Made by a program: the position numbers and the translations under genes. Source: a virus. Taken from it: a DNA stretch of 26,650 nt. The notes under the pieces are model-generated. The model did not search any database and was not told where the DNA came from. It saw only the letters and a list, made by a program, of their open reading frames with translations. Positions 8,650-26,650 of this stretch are shown here, one piece after another (within the stretch, counting starts at the first letter, position 1; the number at the start of each line of letters is the position of its first letter). The stretch spans positions 1 through 26,650 of the IMG/VR virus record IMGVR_UViG_3300035698_003185, one strand, 5' to 3'.

Positions 8650-9992
8650 TGGCTACATCACCAGATAATAAGAGTCAAGCAGATAAACTAGCTGAATCAG
8701 CAGCTGCTCAAGCCTGGGCTGAAAATACTAAAGACTTAGGATTAAATAACCCATTTGCTTCTGGAAAAGGTGTTGATAGTTTCATGATGGGTATAACTGA
8801 TAGACAAACTGATCTAGTTGGTTTATTAGAACAAATGATGGATAAGATAGATACTCCTATATTCAAATCTTTAGCTAATGATATGATTGATATATTAGGT
8901 AGTTTTTACTTAGATGAAGATGCTCTATGTTGTTTAATTAAAAATATATTAATCCAAACTGGTCTTCAAAGTCAATTAGAAGAATATAGTAAATGGTTAA
9001 CTGATGTACGTAGAGCATTAGCAAGTGATGATACAACCGGAGCAGACGGTATTACTATAACTGAAGATAATTTTGAGTTAAAAGTAAGTGAGACATTATT
9101 TGGACGGTATATTGATTCTACCATATCTGTAATTGATATAGTATTAATGTTCTTAATTTTAGATATAAAAGATTTTGTCCTTCCAACTTTCGATTTCATC
9201 CGTGAAATATCAAAAGCAGTAGTTGGATTTTTATTAATATCTATACAAACTATATTATTTACGGTTAGAGATTCAGCCATAGATTGGATATTACAAGAAA
9301 TAGATGATGCTACTAAAAGTAAAAAATGGGTTAAGTGTGTTCCTTATATGGATTTAATATCAATATTAAAAAAGTATATACATGATTATGGTATAACTAA
9401 AAAACTAATGGCTTTAATAAATAGCAAAATAGGTCAACTATTTAATGATATGAATAAGAAATTAAAAGATGACTTTCCTAAAAAAGTAAGAGAAACAGCA
9501 TATTTAAAATTTGTTAGATCTATATTAGTTAACATAAAAAATGCTGTTATAAGTTGGGATTTTTGCGTATTTTTATCAGAAGATCCAGAAGCTGAATCAG
9601 ATGATGATGCTAAAACTAATCCATATCAAACAGCATTAAGAGATATAATGTATGGTGATGGATTAACTACAGATCATAATCGTAATGATTATATGTTTGC
9701 TGATGATGGTACTATACTAAATGATGTAACAAGTAGCAATGTAGATGATGGCACTAATTTAAATAATTCTCAAAATTCTATGAATGGTCCTTCTAATGAT
9801 GAAGTGTTTGCATTTTTACAGAATTACATGGGATTATCTTCAACTAGAGCACGAGAACTTATTACTGATACAGGCTTAAATACAGGAGCTGGTGATGGTC
9901 CTGGTGTAGCAAATAGTTGTGGTAATATATTAGATCCTAATGATATTAAATCTATGTTAGATAGAGTTATAAATAGAAGTAAGGTTGGATAA
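8649..9992 (+). CDS. Unknown structural-region protein with long hydrophobic helices, before portal
   Basis: The 447-residue protein has an acidic N-terminal half with helices, then roughly residues 156-214 dominated by Ile, Leu, Val and Phe (for example VIDIVLMFLILDI and AVVGFLLISIQTILF). This is enough for two membrane-interacting helices. A basic helical region follows, and the last 130 residues are Asn, Asp and Ser rich. Its plan, with a hydrophobic centre between polar ends, parallels the 7052-8362 protein, although I see no clear sequence repeat between them. The stop overlaps the portal start as TAATG. It is likely a virion component near the portal vertex; its exact role is unknown. 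Confidence 0.75.
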   Translation: MATSPDNKSQADKLAESAAAQAWAENTKDLGLNNPFASGKGVDSFMMGITDRQTDLVGLLEQMMDKIDTPIFKSLANDMIDILGSFYLDEDALCCLIKNILIQTGLQSQLEEYSKWLTDVRRALASDDTTGADGITITEDNFELKVSETLFGRYIDSTISVIDIVLMFLILDIKDFVLPTFDFIREISKAVVGFLLISIQTILFTVRDSAIDWILQEIDDATKSKKWVKCVPYMDLISILKKYIHDYGITKKLMALINSKIGQLFNDMNKKLKDDFPKKVRETAYLKFVRSILVNIKNAVISWDFCVFLSEDPEAESDDDAKTNPYQTALRDIMYGDGLTTDHNRNDYMFADDGTILNDVTSSNVDDGTNLNNSQNSMNGPSNDEVFAFLQNYMGLSSTRARELITDTGLNTGAGDGPGVANSCGNILDPNDIKSMLDRVINRSKVG

Positions 9993-11857
9993 TGAATATA
10001 TCAGATTTATTTAAAATAAATACTATTGCTGATTCTAAAGAGGTAACTTTTAGTGGTGATCAAACTGATGCTACAGTTAAAAATCCATCGTTAATATTTT
10101 CAAAACCTAAATATATTAAAAAGTTTTCTATGCCAACAAATGTTAGAGGCGTAGATTTTGTTAGTTCAGAATACGACTTACATACAATAGCTAATGCTGT
10201 TCAATTAGATGGTTTATTAAATAGAGCTGTTAGTATGTATACTGAACAAATTAATAAAAATGGCTATGAAGTTGTTGTTCCTGATGATAAATTATATAAA
10301 CATATAAATAATAGATTTAAAGAAATTGAATTATTTACTAATACTAAAACAACTGCATTAATGACTACTATTTCTAGACAACTTGTAACATATGGTAATG
10401 CTTATATTATAAAAGTTAGAAAACCAAACTTAAGTAAATATGGTAAAAAATATAAATTATATTCGCGAACGGTTAATCCTATAGTTGGTTTATTTTTAGT
10501 TGATGCTAGTACTATGCAAATAGGATTAGATGATAATACTCAAATTAAATATTATAAACAGACAATATCTGGAAACGATAAGATATATAAAGTTGACGAT
10601 GTTATACATTTAACGTATAATAAGATTCCTGGATTGTTAACTGGTAGATCTTCTATAGTTCCAATTTTAGATGATATTAGAGCTTTACGTAAATTAGAAG
10701 AAGAAGCTGAGATATTAGGTTTTCAATATGCTGTACCTCTTTATATTTACAAAGTAGGAACAGATCAACATCCAGCTGCTCCTGGTGAAGTAGATTCAGT
10801 AGCATTAGAGATTAATAACATGAATACATATGGTATAGTTTGTGTACCTCATACTCATAGTGTAGAAACTGTAACTAATAATAATGACCCTATAGATATC
10901 ATTAAATATATAGATCATTTTAAAAAGAGAGTATACGCTGGATTAGGTGTGTCTCCTGTCGCAATGGCTGAATCAGATACATCAAATAGAAATACAGCAG
11001 AAGCTGCATATTTATCTATGCAATCTATTACTAAAGCGTATCAACAGATAATATCTGAACAATTTGAAATGGAATTACTTAAAGAATTTGTATTAGATGC
11101 TGGTTATAATCCACAAAGATTTGTATATGAAATTAGATTTAATGAGATTGATCTAGAAGCAACTATTAAAAAACAAACACATGTATTACAAAAATATCAT
11201 GCTAATCTTATTACTAGAGATGAAGCTAGAATACAAATGGATATGGAGCCTAAAGTTAATGAAAAAGACTTATATCTAAATACTGTTCAGATTCCTATTA
11301 TTAAAGCAGAAGCTGAAGCACAAATACCAATTATTGATAAACAGGCAGAAGCTAATATTAAAGTAGCAAAAGCTGCTCCTAAAACTACAACTACTAGTAC
11401 TTCTAAAAAAGCAACTACTACATCTAAGTCAGCTACTAAATCAAATGGTACTAAATCTTCTAGTAGTAAAGCGTCAGAGAATAAAGTCAAATCTAATAGT
11501 CAACCTACTAACCAACACGGTAAACAATTAGGTAGACCAGTATTTAAAAAAGATGAATTAATAACTTATTCTAAAACCTTATCTGATAATTTGTTATTAA
11601 ACAATCATTATAAATCTAAATTAAATAGAGAAACTTATACTAAAAAATTAATAGATAAGATTAAATCTACTATACTACAAATGGATACTGAAAATAGTGA
11701 TGATATTATTACTAAATTTAACCTGCGATTAACTGATAGAGTTAACAGATTAGGTTCAATTGATTCAGATGTAAAATATGATTATATACTTAATTCTATA
11801 ACTGATGAAATTAATAAGTTAGAATTACAATTGGAGTTAGATAATGACAGTGAATAA
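9992..11857 (+). CDS. Portal protein
   Basis: The 621-residue protein would form the dodecameric portal through which terminase pumps DNA and to which the neck attaches. Supporting segments are an N-terminal helical block (LDGLLNRAVSMYTEQINKNG), the clip and stem-like region QLVTYGNAYIIKVRK, the YKVDDVIHL strand, the helix RALRKLEEEAEILG, and the portal signature VYAGLGVSPVAM at 314-325 followed by NRNTAEAAYLSMQ. Residues about 460-510 are a Thr/Ser/Lys low-complexity linker, then the NQHGKQLGRP segment, similar to many portal tails, and a helical C-terminal domain to 621. It is coupled to the protease gene by a 14-nt overlap and to the upstream gene by TAATG. Confidence 0.9.
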   Translation: MNISDLFKINTIADSKEVTFSGDQTDATVKNPSLIFSKPKYIKKFSMPTNVRGVDFVSSEYDLHTIANAVQLDGLLNRAVSMYTEQINKNGYEVVVPDDKLYKHINNRFKEIELFTNTKTTALMTTISRQLVTYGNAYIIKVRKPNLSKYGKKYKLYSRTVNPIVGLFLVDASTMQIGLDDNTQIKYYKQTISGNDKIYKVDDVIHLTYNKIPGLLTGRSSIVPILDDIRALRKLEEEAEILGFQYAVPLYIYKVGTDQHPAAPGEVDSVALEINNMNTYGIVCVPHTHSVETVTNNNDPIDIIKYIDHFKKRVYAGLGVSPVAMAESDTSNRNTAEAAYLSMQSITKAYQQIISEQFEMELLKEFVLDAGYNPQRFVYEIRFNEIDLEATIKKQTHVLQKYHANLITRDEARIQMDMEPKVNEKDLYLNTVQIPIIKAEAEAQIPIIDKQAEANIKVAKAAPKTTTTSTSKKATTTSKSATKSNGTKSSSSKASENKVKSNSQPTNQHGKQLGRPVFKKDELITYSKTLSDNLLLNNHYKSKLNRETYTKKLIDKIKSTILQMDTENSDDIITKFNLRLTDRVNRLGSIDSDVKYDYILNSITDEINKLELQLELDNDSE

Positions 11858-13358
11858 TTTAGATACTCTTATAGCTAAATTAGATTATATAGATGTTAAA
11901 ATTAACGCAACTCATTTAAATTATGTTAATGGTAATAATCTATTATATACTATAGATGCTGCTACTACTGGCGGTGTTAGTTGGTTAGAACCATATGCTA
12001 AACCTCAATTATTACATCATGATAAAAAACAAGACGCAGTTGGTAGAATTGTATCTTATGACATTAAAGATAAAGCCACTATTAAAGGTGAACCTAAAGA
12101 CTACATTGAATTAACATCCCGTATAACTGATTCTGTTGCTATATCCAAAGTAATTAAAAGTTTATATTTTACTTGTAGTGTTGGTAGTTCTACATCAAAA
12201 GTGAGATGTTCAATATGTAATCAAGTATTAACTACTGATGGTTTATGTGAACATGAAAAAGGTTCCCTGGTTGATGGCAAACAAGTATATTGGATAATAG
12301 ATAATATATCTTATAGAGAAAATTCTTTTGTAAATAATCCTGCTGATTTATACTCCAGAATAATTTCTATTGATATTGGAGATGGTTTTATACCATTTGA
12401 TAAATTCCTTAAAGATAAGGAAAATATTTTAACTGGAGTTTTTTTGGAGGACGATATGTCTAAAAATACATATAAGAAACTAACGGCAGATACAAGAGCT
12501 AATCTTGCTGCTTCAGTTTTTTGTGGACCTGACAATAGTTTTCCTGCACATGACGAAGCACATGTCACAGCAGGGTTAAAATTGTTAGAGGATTCTGAAC
12601 TTACTGATTCTGTTAAACTAAAAATAAAAGGTAGTTTATATAGAAAAGGTAAAAGATTTGAAGTTGTACCAAGTGAGGATGAATTAAAACAAACATCAGA
12701 TTTGTTAATTTACCGCATGGAAGATGACTTTACAGAAGATGAAATGAAAGAATTAAGTGATTATTTTAAAACTAATCCTGATTCTGATTTACCATCTATT
12801 GAGGATTCAGAAGAAGAAACTTCTACTACAACTGAAAAAGTAACATATACTATAGACAGTTATGACGAAGTTATTAAAGGTGAAAAATCTGAAATTATAT
12901 CATTTTGTGATTATTTAGTAAAAGAAGTATCAACTCTTAAAGATGAGATTGAAACTTTAACTATTACTAAAACAGAACTTACTAATAAAACTTCAGAACA
13001 AGATACTATACTAAATAGTAAAGAAGATGAAATTCAAAAAATGCTTGATGATAATGCTACGTTAACCGTATCTTTCAAAAAAGCACTTATTGATAATATT
13101 CTTGATTTTAAACAAATAGTTGAGAATCAAGATGAAGAATTTAAAAAATATGATTCTAGACAAATTGATAGTTTAACTGATACACTTTCTGATTTTAGAA
13201 ATGAATCGGTTACTTCAATACCTAGAGTTGAAGATGAAACATTAACTGACGATCAGCTTGCTGCTGATACTGAAGAAAATGATTCTGGCGAAAATACTAC
13301 TGATATTGATGACAATCAAGAAGAAAGTAAGATAGATCGCTTTTTTAAAAATAATTAA
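11844..13358 (+). CDS. Prohead protease fused to scaffold region
   Basis: The 504-residue protein has three parts. Residues 1-200 look like a phage prohead serine protease: PQLLHHDKKQDAVGR at 54-68 supplies candidate catalytic H58 or H59, and TCSVGS at 110-115 supplies candidate nucleophile S112, followed by the conserved-looking YRENSFVNNPAD segment. Inside it is a zinc-finger-like C122-x2-C125-x9-C135-x-H137 insertion. Residues about 205-300 hold an FCGPDNSFPAHDEAH domain seen in other phage head proteins. Residues about 342-454 are a long coiled coil typical of scaffolds, ending in a basic-aromatic tail. The gene overlaps portal by 14 nt. A strong internal SD and ATG at 12456 would make the scaffold part separately. 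The protease would mature the prohead and remove scaffold. Confidence 0.82.
   Translation: MTVNNLDTLIAKLDYIDVKINATHLNYVNGNNLLYTIDAATTGGVSWLEPYAKPQLLHHDKKQDAVGRIVSYDIKDKATIKGEPKDYIELTSRITDSVAISKVIKSLYFTCSVGSSTSKVRCSICNQVLTTDGLCEHEKGSLVDGKQVYWIIDNISYRENSFVNNPADLYSRIISIDIGDGFIPFDKFLKDKENILTGVFLEDDMSKNTYKKLTADTRANLAASVFCGPDNSFPAHDEAHVTAGLKLLEDSELTDSVKLKIKGSLYRKGKRFEVVPSEDELKQTSDLLIYRMEDDFTEDEMKELSDYFKTNPDSDLPSIEDSEEETSTTTEKVTYTIDSYDEVIKGEKSEIISFCDYLVKEVSTLKDEIETLTITKTELTNKTSEQDTILNSKEDEIQKMLDDNATLTVSFKKALIDNILDFKQIVENQDEEFKKYDSRQIDSLTDTLSDFRNESVTSIPRVEDETLTDDQLAADTEENDSGENTTDIDDNQEESKIDRFFKNN
12446..12450 (+). promoter_or_regulatory. Internal Shine-Dalgarno GGAGG for a nested scaffold start
   Basis: GGAGG sits 5 nt before the in-frame ATG 12456, inside the protease reading frame. 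It is created by GAG and GAC codons, where GAA and GAT are usual here. It is as strong as the SDs of the most highly expressed genes in the window, including the one before 13373. Confidence 0.75.
12456..13358 (+). CDS. Predicted nested scaffold protein (internal in-frame start)
   Basis: Translation from ATG 12456, codon 205 of the protease frame, would give a 300-residue protein lacking the protease domain. It keeps the FCGPDNSFPAHDEAH domain and the long acidic coiled coil. The start has an optimal SD (GGAGG, 5-nt spacing). The boundary falls exactly between the protease domain and the scaffold part, just after the GDGFIPFDKF linker. Nested scaffold genes read from inside a protease gene are known in other phages, for example lambda C and Nu3. 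Here the arrangement would supply the scaffold in excess of the protease. The sequence features are seen directly; that the shorter product is made is inferred. Confidence 0.7.
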   Translation: MSKNTYKKLTADTRANLAASVFCGPDNSFPAHDEAHVTAGLKLLEDSELTDSVKLKIKGSLYRKGKRFEVVPSEDELKQTSDLLIYRMEDDFTEDEMKELSDYFKTNPDSDLPSIEDSEEETSTTTEKVTYTIDSYDEVIKGEKSEIISFCDYLVKEVSTLKDEIETLTITKTELTNKTSEQDTILNSKEDEIQKMLDDNATLTVSFKKALIDNILDFKQIVENQDEEFKKYDSRQIDSLTDTLSDFRNESVTSIPRVEDETLTDDQLAADTEENDSGENTTDIDDNQEESKIDRFFKNN

Positions 13359-13372
13359 AACGGAGGAATAAT

Positions 13373-14461
13373 ATGGCTATTGATAATTTTGGTTTAAATT
13401 TTCAAACCCAAACAACACATGATGTGCCAATTAGAAATCGTCCTGATAAATACGCTCAGTCTCCTCTTGCTAAGAGAGCTAGATTTGAAGTATCAGAAGG
13501 GATTCGTCCTGCAGAATATTTTGCAGCTTATAAATATTTACCTGTAGCAGAATTAGATATCACCACTGGTGATTATACTGTTATACCTAAAGGTAAAATT
13601 TTAGCATCATTATCTGCATTTGATCTAACACCAACAGGTGGAATCAAAGGACTTGCAGCAAGTGGAACATTATACGGCTATGAAAGTCAATTAACAAGTA
13701 CATTAAGTACTTATTCACAAGATAGTTCATACTTTGGATATGATGATTTTATTAGTAATTTACTAGTACCAGCTAATGGTAACGCTGCTTCTACACAGTA
13801 TTATACGGCTTTAGATGTAAGTGCTACTACTATTACTGCTAGTGGAACATATGCGGCTGCTGGCGATTCAATGATCATTCCAGCTAATGCTCCTATTGGA
13901 GTAGCATATCATGACTGGTATCAAGATATCCGTGGTAAAAACTTGAACTACAACATGTGGCCAGATGGCGGACATGTATTAACTGACTGGTATGTTGAAG
14001 TACCTTTTATTGTTGAACAGTCTGGTGTTAATACTATAAGAAGTACTGGTTCTGAAAGTGCAGTTGAACGTGCGGTTTATGTTGGAGTAAGTAATGCTTA
14101 TTCTTATTTAACTGTAGATTACACTGAAAACTTCCAACCTGGTATTTTTGTTCAATCTGATGGTATAGGTAACTATAAACCTCAAGGCGCAGGATCATTA
14201 ACTCAAAGCAAAACAGCTCAAACTGTTGGTAAACTTATGGGTATTGATACAAGATTTCCTAAAGGTGGACTTCAAGACGTAGTAACATATCCTGGATCTA
14301 GAATGCCTGGTACACAAACAGCTGGCTTGCCTAGCTTCTTATTTGAATTTGCAGTTGCTACTGAAATAGTTCAAGGTAATACACCTACAATTGAAACAGT
14401 TCTAGCTGCTGTTCAATCTGGTAAGTATGGTGTAGCTCGAATCCAACTTTTGGTATCTTAA
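13373..14461 (+). CDS. Abundant-type structural protein between scaffold and major capsid genes
   Basis: The 362-residue protein starts after a near-perfect SD CGGAGGA, and its codon choice (more GGT, GGA and C-ending codons) resembles the capsid gene, pointing to high expression. The sequence is Gly, Ser, Thr, Ala and Tyr rich, with many beta-like stretches and no membrane segment. Segments such as VAYHDWYQDIRGKNLNYNMW look structured and conserved, but I cannot assign the family. Its position between scaffold and major capsid suggests a head decoration protein or second capsid component. A minor role is less likely given the strong SD. The major capsid gene follows after 12 nt. Confidence 0.75.
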   Translation: MAIDNFGLNFQTQTTHDVPIRNRPDKYAQSPLAKRARFEVSEGIRPAEYFAAYKYLPVAELDITTGDYTVIPKGKILASLSAFDLTPTGGIKGLAASGTLYGYESQLTSTLSTYSQDSSYFGYDDFISNLLVPANGNAASTQYYTALDVSATTITASGTYAAAGDSMIIPANAPIGVAYHDWYQDIRGKNLNYNMWPDGGHVLTDWYVEVPFIVEQSGVNTIRSTGSESAVERAVYVGVSNAYSYLTVDYTENFQPGIFVQSDGIGNYKPQGAGSLTQSKTAQTVGKLMGIDTRFPKGGLQDVVTYPGSRMPGTQTAGLPSFLFEFAVATEIVQGNTPTIETVLAAVQSGKYGVARIQLLVS

Positions 14462-14473
14462 AGGAGATAATAA

Positions 14474-15787
14474 ATGTATATAAAAGACGAAATCGCTCTT
14501 AGAGACTTTAAAACTCAAGAAGATAGAACTGTATTTAATAATGTATATTCTGCATTTACAAATAGAGGGCTAATGGAAGACAGCAAAGGTGATGTTGAGT
14601 TCTTTGAATTGAAAGATTTAATTACTACTCAAGATTTAACCCGCTTTATTCCACAAACAGTAGAAACAATTGTAAGAGAAGCCATAGAGCCTAACTTATT
14701 TATTGTTGATAAACTGTTTCAAGAAATTAATATTCCTAGAGGTTCTAGAATCCAAATTGGTGCCATTGGCGCAATGGAAGCTGGACGTGTAGGACAAGGT
14801 GGAGAGTATCCTGAAAGATTTGTAGATCTTGATGGTGGTGACATGGTTGCACTTACAACTGATAAACACGGTTTGAAAATTTCTTTAACTGAAGAAGTTT
14901 TAAATGAGAACTTGTTTGATGTTGTTGGTATCTGGCTTAGAGCTGCTGGCCGTGCACTTGCACGTCATAAAGAACGTACTGCTGCTAAATTGATTAATGA
15001 GATGGGTTATGATGTTTTCAATAACGTTACTCCATCTACTGCATATATTGGTGCTACTACTGGTAGAAACATTGCTGGTTTAGGTAATGGTTCAATGACT
15101 GTTAATGATATATTTGAAATGTATACTTATCTTCTTCATAGAGGATTTAGTCCTGATACACTTCTTATGCATCCATTAGCGTGGAAAACTTTTATGACTG
15201 ACACAGAAATGCGTGAAGTTGTATTAAAAGGTGCAACAGTTAACTCATATAAGAATCCTAATGGCTCTTATGCTGAAAACTGGAAAACTGGACATAGTGG
15301 ACTTGGTCTTAGAACTAAAGCAACTGGTAATAGTGAGACTTCTGGTAATTCTGCTAAAGGCGGAAATGCTTGGACTCAAACTCTTAATCCACTTGGAGCA
15401 ACTTTTAACATTGCACCGGATTATTTACCTACACCATTAGAAGTTCTTGTAACTCAATATGCGCCTTTTGCATATGGTTCTAGATCTCCTGGTACAGCTA
15501 ATGAAACTACTAAAGGTTCTACCTCTAGTCTTATCATGGTTGATAGTTCAAATTGTGGACTAATTGGTACATCAATGCCTGTTACTATGGATCGTTGGTC
15601 AGATCCTGAACGTGATATTGAAAACATTAAGCTTAAAGAAGCTTGGGGTTTAGCTTTACTTGAACAAGGTAAAGGAATTGCTGTAGCACGTAATATTTCT
15701 ACTGATAGAAACTATAATTTTGATAATGCAAATAATCAGACTCTTAGTGAACTTGATAGAAATGTAACACCATCAGGTATGCTATAA
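14474..15787 (+). CDS. Major capsid protein (HK97-fold type)
   Basis: The 437-residue protein follows SD AAAGGAGA and is followed by a terminator, as usual for the most expressed head gene. The N-terminal 50 residues form a charged helix of the kind often removed at maturation. The order then fits the HK97 fold: LFIVDKLFQEINIPRGSR, an E-loop-like region with GRVGQGGEYPE, the spine-helix candidate VVGIWLRAAGRALARHKE, and the A-domain helices SMTVNDIFEMYTYLLHRGF followed by PDTLLMHPLAWKTFM. The C-terminal strand region includes YAPFAYGSRSP. Position after protease/scaffold and before the neck genes supports the call. Maturation cleavage sites cannot be read with confidence. Confidence 0.9.
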   Translation: MYIKDEIALRDFKTQEDRTVFNNVYSAFTNRGLMEDSKGDVEFFELKDLITTQDLTRFIPQTVETIVREAIEPNLFIVDKLFQEINIPRGSRIQIGAIGAMEAGRVGQGGEYPERFVDLDGGDMVALTTDKHGLKISLTEEVLNENLFDVVGIWLRAAGRALARHKERTAAKLINEMGYDVFNNVTPSTAYIGATTGRNIAGLGNGSMTVNDIFEMYTYLLHRGFSPDTLLMHPLAWKTFMTDTEMREVVLKGATVNSYKNPNGSYAENWKTGHSGLGLRTKATGNSETSGNSAKGGNAWTQTLNPLGATFNIAPDYLPTPLEVLVTQYAPFAYGSRSPGTANETTKGSTSSLIMVDSSNCGLIGTSMPVTMDRWSDPERDIENIKLKEAWGLALLEQGKGIAVARNISTDRNYNFDNANNQTLSELDRNVTPSGML

Positions 15788-22826: not shown

Positions 22827-22879
22827 AACTAGTCTCAGATAATATGATTTGGGACTTTAAACTAAGAAAGAAGGACATT

Positions 22880-23572
22880 ATGGCTAATGGAATTGGTGCA
22901 CCAGGAGGATTCTCCGACACTATGACACAAACCTATAATGCACACGCCGGAACAGATATTATTGCTACTCTTAATGGAGTAGTACTTGGTAACTTGAATG
23001 GTATCTCATTTTCAACTACTAGAGAAAAAGCCCCAGTTTATACATTAGGTAATGTAGATGCTGTAGCTTTTGGTAGAGGTAAAAGAGGACATGCAGGATC
23101 AATGATTTTTACAAATTTTGATAGGCATGCATTATGGGATGTTAAAGAAGCGTTAGCTGGAACAGAGCAAGCGTTAGAGTATTACAGAAAAGGAACAGAT
23201 ATACCTGCAGGTGGTAGATCTATACTTTTAGGTAGTCAAAGTTTTGAAGGTGACTTAAACGCGTTAGGTAAGTCTTTTAAGACTAAGACTAACTATTCTG
23301 ACCAGATACCACCTTTTACAATAACATTAACTGGTCAAAATGAATATGGTTCCACTTCAGTAATGGCCTTACTTGGTGTAGAATTTATTAATGAAGGTTC
23401 AGGTATATCTATTGATGATATAGTTACAGAGTCTCAAATGACTTTCGTAGCAAGAGCTATTCAAACATGGAGACCATTGAAAAATGGTGATCTTCATGCA
23501 TTTGATCAAGCAGTAGTAGGTGCAAATAGTCCTTTAGCAGCAGTGCGCGCAGCATATGCTTCTAAAAGATAA
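22880..23572 (+). CDS. Tail tube protein
   Basis: The start at ATG 22880 follows the SD GAAGGA. The frame is open to an earlier ATG at 22844, but that one has no SD and sits just after the hairpin. The 230-residue product forms the inner tube inside the sheath. Order and content fit the contractile tail-tube fold: a strand pair around LNGVVLGNLNGISFS, a segment KAPVYTLGNVDAVAFGRGKR, the hydrophobic strand GSMIFTNF, then DQIPPFTITLTGQNEYGS and a closing MTFVARAI strand. The two genes downstream share the same pattern. The gene is flanked by hairpins at 22800 and 23606, consistent with a separately controlled, high-level transcript. Confidence 0.88.
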   Translation: MANGIGAPGGFSDTMTQTYNAHAGTDIIATLNGVVLGNLNGISFSTTREKAPVYTLGNVDAVAFGRGKRGHAGSMIFTNFDRHALWDVKEALAGTEQALEYYRKGTDIPAGGRSILLGSQSFEGDLNALGKSFKTKTNYSDQIPPFTITLTGQNEYGSTSVMALLGVEFINEGSGISIDDIVTESQMTFVARAIQTWRPLKNGDLHAFDQAVVGANSPLAAVRAAYASKR

Positions 23573-23660: not shown

Positions 23661-24656
23661 ATGAGTGCATGGACAAGAAGTTTATATAAAAATACTAAAA
23701 ATATTAAAGATAATGTTAATAGTAATGGTTTAGATTTCCTAAGAGCTGGCCCTATAGATACTACAATGGATCTAGGTTTAACTCCTACTTCTTTAACTTA
23801 TGCCTCAACTAATCAAAGTTATAGTGGTACTGATTGTACTGTAGCTATTATTTATAATGAAAATATTGTAATATTAGGTAATGTTGAAACTGTATCTTAT
23901 TCTATACATAGAGACAAAATGCCAGTTAGAACTCTTGGTAGAACTTATGCTAAGAATTATTGTAGAGGTGGAAAAACTATTGCTGGTAGTTTAATATTTG
24001 TCCAATTTGACGAGTCGCCATTATATAAATTATATGAATTTTTTAATAAAAAATCAGAAAACCAACATAGATTTAGTTCTCCTACTTCAGATGAAATTCC
24101 TCCTTTTGATATGATGCTTATATTTGAAAATGAATATGGATATAGTTCTATCATTAGATTATATGGTGTTGAAATTACGGATGAAGGCGGAACTTATAGT
24201 ATTAATGATATCTATTCTGAGAATGTTATGCAATATATAGCTAAAGATATTGATCCAATGATTTCTTCTGGTAAAAAAGGAGAATTCCAAAATATGTTAT
24301 ATGAAAAAATGGTTCAAGGTAAAGTTATAGATGAACATTATAATTCTATGATTAAATATAAATCTAAATTAGATAGACAACTTAATGATTTATTAAAGAA
24401 ATTAGATATTTTAAGTAAAGACGCTTCTGCTAGAACTAGAAGAGGTAGTGGTAGTATTGCCACTCAAAAAAATAAAGATCGCATGACAATTAGAAAAAAA
24501 TATGATAATCTTGTGTTAAAAATAGAAACTCATAAAAAAGAAATAGAAAAAATAAGCGCAGATATTAGAAATTATGAACGTACAAAAATGACATGGGATT
24601 TAAATTCAAGTATGGAACCTGTATCTTCAATAGGCACAATCAAAGAAGGTAATTAA
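23661..24656 (+). CDS. Tail-tube paralogue with coiled-coil C-terminus
   Basis: The 331-residue protein repeats the tube-protein pattern: ILGNVETVSYSIHRDKMPVR matches VLGNLNGISFSTTREKAPVY of the tube, followed by a shared TLG, then GSLIFVQF for GSMIFTNF, then DEIPPFDMMLIFENEYGYSS for DQIPPFTITLTGQNEYGSTS, and YIAKDI for FVARAI. It adds an N-terminal extension of about 55 residues and, after the fold (about residue 200), a Lys-rich coiled coil of about 110 residues. The role is probably a minor tube-like protein at one tube end, such as an initiator at the baseplate or a junction protein. It has a poor SD (GTAGG), which fits low copy number. Confidence 0.75.
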   Translation: MSAWTRSLYKNTKNIKDNVNSNGLDFLRAGPIDTTMDLGLTPTSLTYASTNQSYSGTDCTVAIIYNENIVILGNVETVSYSIHRDKMPVRTLGRTYAKNYCRGGKTIAGSLIFVQFDESPLYKLYEFFNKKSENQHRFSSPTSDEIPPFDMMLIFENEYGYSSIIRLYGVEITDEGGTYSINDIYSENVMQYIAKDIDPMISSGKKGEFQNMLYEKMVQGKVIDEHYNSMIKYKSKLDRQLNDLLKKLDILSKDASARTRRGSGSIATQKNKDRMTIRKKYDNLVLKIETHKKEIEKISADIRNYERTKMTWDLNSSMEPVSSIGTIKEGN

Positions 24657-24657
24657 T

Positions 24658-26650
24658 ATGAGTATTACTCCAGCTAGAGGGTTAAAATTAGATGCTGACA
24701 CTACAATATATGTTCTTGATAAAGATGGTAAACCAATACAAAATCCAACTAAAGAACAATTTAAAAAAAGATATTGGGAATATAAAGCTGAAGAAAAAAT
24801 TGCAGATAGAGGTCAAAGAGATAATTATAAATCAGCTAAATATAAAGAGACTGTTAAAAATGATTTAAATCAACAGTATGCTAATCAAACCCGTGGAGAA
24901 ATGGCTGGTCCTGATAAACATGATAGTAGATATAATTATGATACATATAAGTATGATTATTTCTGTGGTTCAAACGCTAAAGTATTTATAGGTGATATTT
25001 GGGTAGATGATGTTGTTACTATACAACACAATATCCGTCAAACTAAAGAACCTATTTATGGTTATTCGTCACAGCACTATGATAGCGTTGCTATGGGTAC
25101 TATATTAGGTGAGGGTACCTTAGCTATAGCTTTTAAGGAAACAGGCTACCTTAACGTTATTAAGGCCTATTTAGAAGAGCAATCAAAAGGTGTTCAAGAT
25201 GCTAAGAATAATTTAAACTATAGAATGAACAATAATGAAGCAATCATTAGTTCAACTTCTGATTATTCAGCATATGTAAAAGATCAATTTAATCCTGGTT
25301 TAATAAGACAAAGTGAAAACATAGAAACAGTTTTAGATAATTTAAAAGGTCTTAAGGTAGAACAAGATGGTACAAATAATACTGTAGAATTTGGTAATAA
25401 TACAACTATTAAAGATTTTGAAGATACCGCTGAAGTATTAGAAGATGTAATCTGGGGTGATTCTAATGGTAAACCATTTGGGTTAGATCAAGAACAACAC
25501 GGATTATTAAGAGTTGATGAATTTGATTATATTAAAGAAAAAGGTAATATAGTAGGTATTAAATCTGCTAGTGAAGATAATTATGAAGATGTAATGAATA
25601 TCCTTATAACATATGGTGATATGTCTGATAAAAGATCAGAACATACTATTACAGTTTTAAATGATATTCATTTCACTGGTCAAAGTGTTATTGTTAATCC
25701 TAATGGTGATCCTATAGCAGAAGTATATAATTTCTTTTTCAGAGATATAAATAAAACAGTAAACCAACATACATTTAAAACTAATCCTATTAAATTTAAT
25801 ATTGGTAATGAAGAAGCATTTCATCTATCAACTTTAGAGCAAATAGAAAACGCTTTAAATAATAAACAGTATGATATACATATAAATATTAAATCCTATA
25901 ATGATGGTTCAGTATGGATACCTATAAATATTAAAATAGTGCCAACTGATTTAGATTTAGGATTGTTTCAACCAGATAAGCAAATAGGAATACCTAGTTC
26001 TCTTAATCAATATGTAGAAGAAGCTATTAGTGAATACATGTCAATAACTGGTACTGATAAAATATCATATAAAGATAGTATTGCTAAATTAGCTATTGAA
26101 GTTGATGGTATGTCTTATAATGGTTCTACGTATGGTGCTGATGGTTTTGGTTCAAGTGGTGATAAATCTAGTACTATTAATATGGTAGCTGAACGTCTTA
26201 CTGAGTTTAATAGTAATAATTATAGAATAATTGCTCCAGCTAAGAATGAATCATTAATAGTTGATGTTATTAAAAGAGAAGATTTCTTTAAACCTAGTCC
26301 TACTATTATTCATAAAGATAAGTTTGATGAATTTGTTGATGAGACAGAAATAACTTCTGCCGGTTTAGATCAATTAGAATTAGATCTACAAGAAGGTGCA
26401 GCAAATGCTAAAGATTTAGAAAATACTAAATATCAGACTAAAATGTATGAAGGGCGACAGTCAGTTATAACTGATTTTGGTGAGGATCTTAATATTCATG
26501 ATTTAGATAATACTTATAGTGACCCTAATACGGTTATAACTGATTTTGGTGAGGATCTTAATATTCATGATTTAGATAATACTTATAGTGACCCTAATAC
26601 GGTTATTGATATATCTGATCAGTACACTATACCATTAGATGAATGGGACA
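24658..26650 (+). CDS. Third tube-fold tail protein, 3' partial
   Basis: The frame begins at ATG 24658 after SD GAAGG and stays open to the right edge (664 codons visible). An N-terminal charged stretch is followed at about 106-160 by a first tube-like half (NAKVFIGDIWVDDVVTIQHN, then KEPIYGY, and GTLAIAF). About 150 inserted residues follow, then a second half at about 316-364 (ILITYGDMSD, then LNDIHFTGQSV and FFFRDI, like the closing strands of the tube). Further domains include a Gly/Ser-rich segment (TYGADGFGSSGDKS). The visible end carries a perfect 23-residue tandem duplication. It is likely a tail-tip or baseplate-hub-proximal protein built on the tube fold. Confidence 0.7.
   Translation, partial: MSITPARGLKLDADTTIYVLDKDGKPIQNPTKEQFKKRYWEYKAEEKIADRGQRDNYKSAKYKETVKNDLNQQYANQTRGEMAGPDKHDSRYNYDTYKYDYFCGSNAKVFIGDIWVDDVVTIQHNIRQTKEPIYGYSSQHYDSVAMGTILGEGTLAIAFKETGYLNVIKAYLEEQSKGVQDAKNNLNYRMNNNEAIISSTSDYSAYVKDQFNPGLIRQSENIETVLDNLKGLKVEQDGTNNTVEFGNNTTIKDFEDTAEVLEDVIWGDSNGKPFGLDQEQHGLLRVDEFDYIKEKGNIVGIKSASEDNYEDVMNILITYGDMSDKRSEHTITVLNDIHFTGQSVIVNPNGDPIAEVYNFFFRDINKTVNQHTFKTNPIKFNIGNEEAFHLSTLEQIENALNNKQYDIHINIKSYNDGSVWIPINIKIVPTDLDLGLFQPDKQIGIPSSLNQYVEEAISEYMSITGTDKISYKDSIAKLAIEVDGMSYNGSTYGADGFGSSGDKSSTINMVAERLTEFNSNNYRIIAPAKNESLIVDVIKREDFFKPSPTIIHKDKFDEFVDETEITSAGLDQLELDLQEGAANAKDLENTKYQTKMYEGRQSVITDFGEDLNIHDLDNTYSDPNTVITDFGEDLNIHDLDNTYSDPNTVIDISDQYTIPLDEWD
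26464..26601 (+). repeat. Perfect 69-bp tandem duplication in tail gene
   Basis: The 69-bp unit at 26464-26532 is repeated without a mismatch at 26533-26601, followed by five more matching bases. The unit is in frame and encodes 23 residues starting VITDFGEDLN. Identity at third codon positions means the duplication is recent or actively kept identical. Confidence 0.93.

Follow-up and report, generated by a model that had tools for sequence, protein, structure and literature searches.

The gene at positions 11844..13358 (+ strand) of the IMG/VR virus record IMGVR_UViG_3300035698_003185, of which positions 1 to 26,650 were analysed (the window, to which all positions refer unless another locus is named), raises the question of whether it specifies only the 504-residue protein predicted from its full length (57.0 kDa; isoelectric point, pI, 4.5) or, as proposed in a first-pass annotation, also a free scaffold protein translated from an in-frame start nested at the border between a prohead protease domain and the C-terminal part. 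The nested scaffold is supported by the presence of a start signal at this junction in 44 of 56 homologues, with an upstream part that is a protease by fold and a downstream part that is scaffold-like. The gene very probably encodes two proteins with a common C-terminal part, namely a protease-scaffold fusion and the free scaffold.

At the proposed site the sequence reads TTT TTG GAG GAC GAT ATG TCT, with the internal Shine-Dalgarno (SD) sequence GGAGG (12446..12450, + strand; codons (TT)G GAG G(AC)) separated by the 5-nt spacer ACGAT from an ATG (12456..12458, + strand; Met205, codon 205 of 504). The latter is in the frame of 11844-13358 and opens a reading frame of 300 residues to the stop (12456..13358, + strand; 34.3 kDa, pI 4.27), exactly as the first-pass annotation had described it. 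That annotation had also regarded the GAG GAC pair forming the SD as unusual, and the codon counts agree (38 GAA and 6 GAG, 47 GAT and 11 GAC in the gene; 414 GAA and 69 GAG across the genes of the window). The + strand of the window has no more than four GGAGG sequences: two are the SDs of annotated genes (13373 and 15907), the third is the internal site, and the fourth (22904) has its nearest in-frame ATG 13 nt away. Among the 229 internal in-frame ATG, GTG and TTG codons of the window genes, only that at 12456 has an SD at a spacing of 4-9 nt with a duplex energy of −8 kcal/mol or lower, the calculated value being −9.3 kcal/mol as compared with −5.9 kcal/mol for the GGAG of the full-length gene. 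Another in-frame internal ATG, at 24294 in the gene 23661-24656, follows an AAGGAG sequence, but at a spacing of 10-11 nt.

In 1.2% of 20,000 synonymous-codon permutations of the window gene, GGAGG with an in-frame start arose no more than 10 codons from the junction, and in 3.0% it arose somewhere in the gene; the former value makes the case from this single gene suggestive, not overwhelming. In the minimum-energy RNA structure around the site the SD is unpaired, but the folding counts as no more than weak evidence, its stability being nothing unusual (z −1.0).

It is therefore by the homologues, and not by the window gene alone, that the nested start becomes convincing. Three isolated relatives were identified by tblastn, namely Bacillus phage KLEB27-3 gp014, Moorella phage MTATph1 CDS0006 and Acinetobacter phage ME3_20, the records of which annotate a single coding sequence for the gene. 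A search of IMG/VR with the full protein as single-sequence query gave no matches; alignment queries of the protease and capsid proteins of the isolated relatives gave 26 and 61 loci (L numbers below denote individual loci). The homologue set comprised 68 distinct sequences, 56 of them at less than 80% identity. The conserved NxPAD motif at the end of the protease domain served as an anchor, sites were sought 20-120 residues downstream of it, and a strong site was defined as an in-frame ATG, GTG or TTG whose SD duplex had an energy of −8 kcal/mol or below. The 44 strong junction sites compare with 11.1 ± 2.6 of 56 (highest value, 19) in 200 synonymous shuffles, and outside the junction the same open reading frames (ORFs) contain only 3. 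With a sequence-based definition of the SD (a match of at least 6 nt), sites number 0.74 per 100 codons at the junction, as compared with 0.045 in the remainder of these ORFs and 0.019 in 265 control ORFs, so that the junction exceeds the controls by approximately 40-fold. The spacing between SD and start is mostly 5-8 nt, and junction sites are distributed over frames 0, +1 and +2 as 28/5/1. When the relatives are thinned, the signal is found in 17 of 24 clusters at 40% identity and in 10 of 13 at 35%; homologues with a nested start are scattered over the whole tree, and the start codon varies among ATG, GTG and TTG (GTG in KLEB27-3, for example, and ATG behind AAGGAGG in L073) while the start itself is kept. 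Several nominal negatives have a weaker site in the same place (AAGGA-ATG in ME3, L084 and L087; AGGAG-ATG in L044; CGGAG-ATG in L036). Loss of both SD and Met at the boundary, which the first-pass annotation had named as evidence to the contrary, is accordingly not the pattern of the family, most of the homologues without a strong site having this weaker one.

The clade of the window (14 sequences: the window and 13 relatives at 39-64% identity to it) allowed the site to be followed in a codon alignment. GGAGG is kept in 13 of the 14. The Glu residue at the SD is likewise encoded by GAG in 13 of 14, with 21% GAG and 79% GAA among the Glu codons of the clade overall, and GAG in 2-5 of 14 at the other invariant Glu columns. 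In five members the ATG lies one codon further downstream with the SD in place; in L036 it is the SD that lies one codon further upstream. Since the GAG and the SD are kept while the ATG shifts, selection looks to be acting on the initiation signal itself and not on the protein alone.

A near-perfect internal ribosome-binding site is present in L077 (AATAGGAGGTGACATG). This locus, which had looked like a split-gene homologue, gives no evidence of two separate genes, the scaffold frame being broken by a frameshift (3900-4450 of L077) some 70 codons past the internal start, which may be a sequencing error or real.

The part upstream of the internal start (residues 1-204; 11844..12455, + strand) was identified as a prohead (capsid maturation) protease domain from its AlphaFold2 model, Foldseek searches and conservation. 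The model has a mean pLDDT (predicted local distance difference test) of 95.8, and the structures matched in the PDB are those of the varicella-zoster virus protease (Z 11.2), T4 gp21 (5jbl; Z 10.5 over 122 residues) and the human cytomegalovirus protease (Z 9.5 over 140 residues), with unrelated entries clearly below, at Z of approximately 6 (Foldseek/VIA). The best BFVD matches include prohead proteases, with E values to 1.5e-16, and there is no ClpP among the structure matches listed, the best being assemblin and gp21, although such a list does not prove its absence. The domain as modelled has the T4 gp21/herpesvirus assemblin fold. At the sequence level, phrog_18299 (head maturation protease) matches 23 of 47 members, and PF04586 (Peptidase_S78) only 1 of 47, weakly (E 0.0024). 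H24, H59 and S112 are invariant across 47 sequences, and the catalytic residues are probably to be sought among them. A CxxC..CxH cluster (C122, C125, C135 and H137), invariant or nearly so, probably binds zinc, and the actinophage and phage G relatives (L092-L097) have a similar CSxC..C.H pattern. The last helix of the model spans residues 192-203, confidence falls in 201-204 and Met205 comes next, which places the site at the domain boundary, where the first-pass annotation had put it.

The nested product begins with a DUF6582-like module (KLT..R..L..SVFCGP..SFPAHDEAHV..GL..L; 12474..12680, + strand), followed by a disordered linker, a long coiled-coil helix of 76 residues (nested residues 144-219; 12885..13112, + strand; AlphaFold2), a helical hairpin (225-252), a disordered acidic tail and a short C-terminal helix (292-299; 13329..13352, + strand), which is a candidate capsid-binding element. 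The most conserved scaffold core, including the hairpin (13092..13211, + strand), contains D217, R235, S239, L240, D242 and D246 in nested numbering and is conserved across the family. Being acidic and, as predicted, helical, with a long coiled coil and a short C-terminal helix, the nested product is scaffold-like. Its sequence matches in the PDB are generic-looking coiled coils only, those of the whole product in PHROG are likewise of coiled-coil type, and a BFVD search gave no significant match, the best scaffold-named entry being a Gordonia phage protein at E 0.84.

The N-terminal module is matched by phrog_16160; the window segment gave no match to PF20223 (DUF6582), and the relatives L038 and L040 scored 16.4 and 20.9 bits, below the Pfam gathering cut-off of 27.3. 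It is confined to the window's clade and a few others; beyond the clade, most relatives have a nested product of roughly 175-290 residues without it. As most members with a nested start do without it, the module is to be considered accessory and the mechanism independent of it; the novelty that the first-pass annotation had seen in the pairing of a nested start with the FCGP..SFPA..EAH domain was not borne out.

Some observations weigh against the production of a free scaffold from the nested start. In PDB and PHROG searches the nested product showed no sequence homology to any characterised scaffold, and the nested start is not universal in the family, approximately 5 of the 56 homologues (L003, that is MTATph1, L053, L082, L047 and L022) being without a convincing junction site. 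The annotated starts of the window, on the other hand, have GGAG-type SDs. The few homologues without a good internal site would also fit a scheme in which only the full-length fusion is translated and the scaffold is freed by autoproteolysis, the internal SD being incidental. Fusions of protease and scaffold are able to release the scaffold by cleavage, as has been proposed for P2 gpO-like proteins and as at the herpesvirus release site, and for phage 0105phi7-2 such a release has been suggested by analogy with P2 (PMC10219371). However, autoproteolysis does not account for the conservation, relative to synonymous nulls, of a strong SD with an in-frame start at this boundary, and cleavage and internal initiation may coexist, as in herpes simplex virus (HSV) UL26/UL26.5; as the sole source of the scaffold it is improbable.

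The location of the site just past the final helix of the protease could instead reflect a translational pause, with the SD-like sequence aiding folding of the protease rather than serving as a start. For pausing no start codon is needed, yet an in-frame start at initiation spacing (most often 7-8 nt) is strongly enriched (28:5:1) and is kept while switching among ATG, GTG and TTG, and we regard this explanation as very unlikely. Codon luck in an acidic linker (Glu-Glu, Glu-Asp, Glu-Gly) might also generate GGAGG: the linkers are Glu-rich, and for the window gene alone the expectation is 1-3%. However, permutations keeping protein and codon usage reproduce the site in approximately 11 of the 56 homologues as compared with the 44 observed, and the clade has GAG at the SD in 13 of 14 sequences against a usage of 21%, so that chance is hardly credible.

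Internal initiation yielding a free scaffold is thus the preferred reading. The analysis shows the site and that it is conserved, the fold of the protease, the helical, scaffold-like build of the nested product and the arrangement of the genes; the steps from initiation at 12456 onwards are those we infer from the sequence. Ribosomes starting at 11844 would produce the 57-kDa protein in which an assemblin/gp21-type prohead protease is fused to the scaffold domain, and those starting at the internal GGAGG/ATG 12456 the free 34-kDa scaffold. A duplex of −9.3 at the internal SD, against −5.9 at the full-length start, is in keeping with an excess of free scaffold. Free scaffold and a lesser amount of fusion would co-assemble via their common coiled-coil/C-terminal region, so that the procapsid core would receive the protease at low stoichiometry, and after shell assembly the protease would cleave the scaffold and itself.

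The order of the genes in the window is terminase, portal (9992-11857; PF04860), the protease-scaffold gene, a gene without assigned function (13373..14461, + strand, with its own GGAGG SD), the major capsid gene (14474-15787; PF25209) and further genes that, from their size and order, look like those of tail sheath and tube. The start ATG at 11844 overlaps the end of the portal gene. The position between portal and major capsid genes is that expected for nested genes of the C/Nu3 kind, and placement directly upstream of capsid genes is the genomic context of a scaffold. The order portal, homologue gene, unknown gene and major capsid protein is common to KLEB27-3, MTATph1 and ME3. The 362-residue product of 13373-14461 has no Pfam or PHROG match; genes in the same position are found in KLEB27-3 (labelled putative capsid protein), MTATph1 and ME3. 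Elsewhere in the window, the gene at 22844-23572 has no SD at its listed start (22844), and the in-frame Met of MANGIGAPGG, at approximately 22880, may be the real one; the last ORF, which is truncated, contains at about 26500-26649 a protein-level direct repeat of VITDFGEDLNIHDLDNTYSDPNT.

The protease domain extends to cluster C mycobacteriophages, to Rhodococcus phages E3 and Finch and, by predicted fold, to Bacillus phage G. The distant actinophage relatives, the C-terminal parts of which are different and much longer, and phage G were kept outside the homologue statistics. E3 (L093, gp77 codon 449) and Finch (L094, codon 557) have one strong AAGGAG-type in-frame start each in mid-gene, and a nested product may exist for both protease genes. 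In the cluster C mycobacteriophages (L095-L097) the protease domain is N-terminal in a protein of approximately 1200-1370 residues labelled tape measure (Myrna) or hypothetical; for Myrna gp97 (L095 3378-7013) the tape-measure label is probably wrong.

A literature search found no description of a nested scaffold in this phage family, which is not proof of absence, and no paper naming KLEB27-3, MTATph1 or DUF6582. What the gene adds to the known cases is conserved nested protease/scaffold coding in a large, mostly uncultivated phage family with an assemblin/gp21-fold protease. The database records examined give the gene a single product, called 'prohead protease' or 'hypothetical protein', and the nested product is not annotated, so that the main core protein of the heads would be missing from the annotation. 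In at least one group of large phages the counterpart of the T4 scaffold was still unconfirmed (PMC5694885). With the conserved internal start, dozens of large phages gain a definite candidate for their scaffold.

The principle of lambda C/Nu3, invoked in the first-pass annotation, is indeed already known, also from Mu I/Z, the Mu-like phage PaMx73 and HSV UL26/UL26.5. In lambda the scaffold gene lies, in the same frame, within the 3' part of the protease gene and the two proteins have a common C-terminus; the window gene is alike in both respects. The original work on C/Nu3 (Shaw & Murialdo 1980) is cited in PMC8508860. The window gene probably differs from C/Nu3 in its gp21/assemblin fold, whereas lambda-type proteases have been modelled on ClpP (MD8 paper), in the extra DUF6582-like module, and in that no sequence homology was found between the two systems. 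The Mu I/Z system and PaMx73 share the nested protease/scaffold coding but belong to a phage lineage other than that of the window virus. The Mu protease is also of a different family from that of the window gene. In PaMx73 the putative internal start is Val177, with the SD ACGAGGA (PMC4378225).

In the herpesvirus UL26/UL26.5 pair (VP24-VP21 / VP22a), similarly, a protease of assemblin fold is joined to a scaffold that has a nested frame as well. The herpesvirus nested scaffold gene has a separate transcript, being a gene of its own, whereas in the window gene a bacterial SD lies within one message. In HSV the nested product is identical to the last 329 residues of the UL26 protein, and VP21, which derives from the fusion, makes up approximately 10% of the scaffold (PMC12474303). 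Among phage proteases with a known structure T4 gp21 comes closest (5jbl, Z 10.5), but in T4 the protease gp21 and the scaffold gp22 are separate core proteins (PMC5694885) instead of a fusion. Similarly, Bacillus phage G gp19 has a similar predicted protease fold (Foldseek E 1.6e-11) and a CSIC..CDH cluster, but it is a stand-alone protease of 300 residues followed by the separate genes gp20 and gp21; gp19 (L092 16840-17742) with gp20/gp21 may represent the fused gene in split form. Judging from the sequences, nested protease/scaffold coding in phages appears to occur with the herpesvirus-type protease fold too. That a deeply diverged, largely unannotated family of large tailed phages carries the UL26/UL26.5 arrangement, with a nested scaffold possibly ancient and recurrent in the assemblin-type lineage, is a tentative proposal to which we give slightly less than an even chance; if true, the nested scaffold would be a feature of the assemblin-type protease lineage and not a peculiarity of lambda or Mu.
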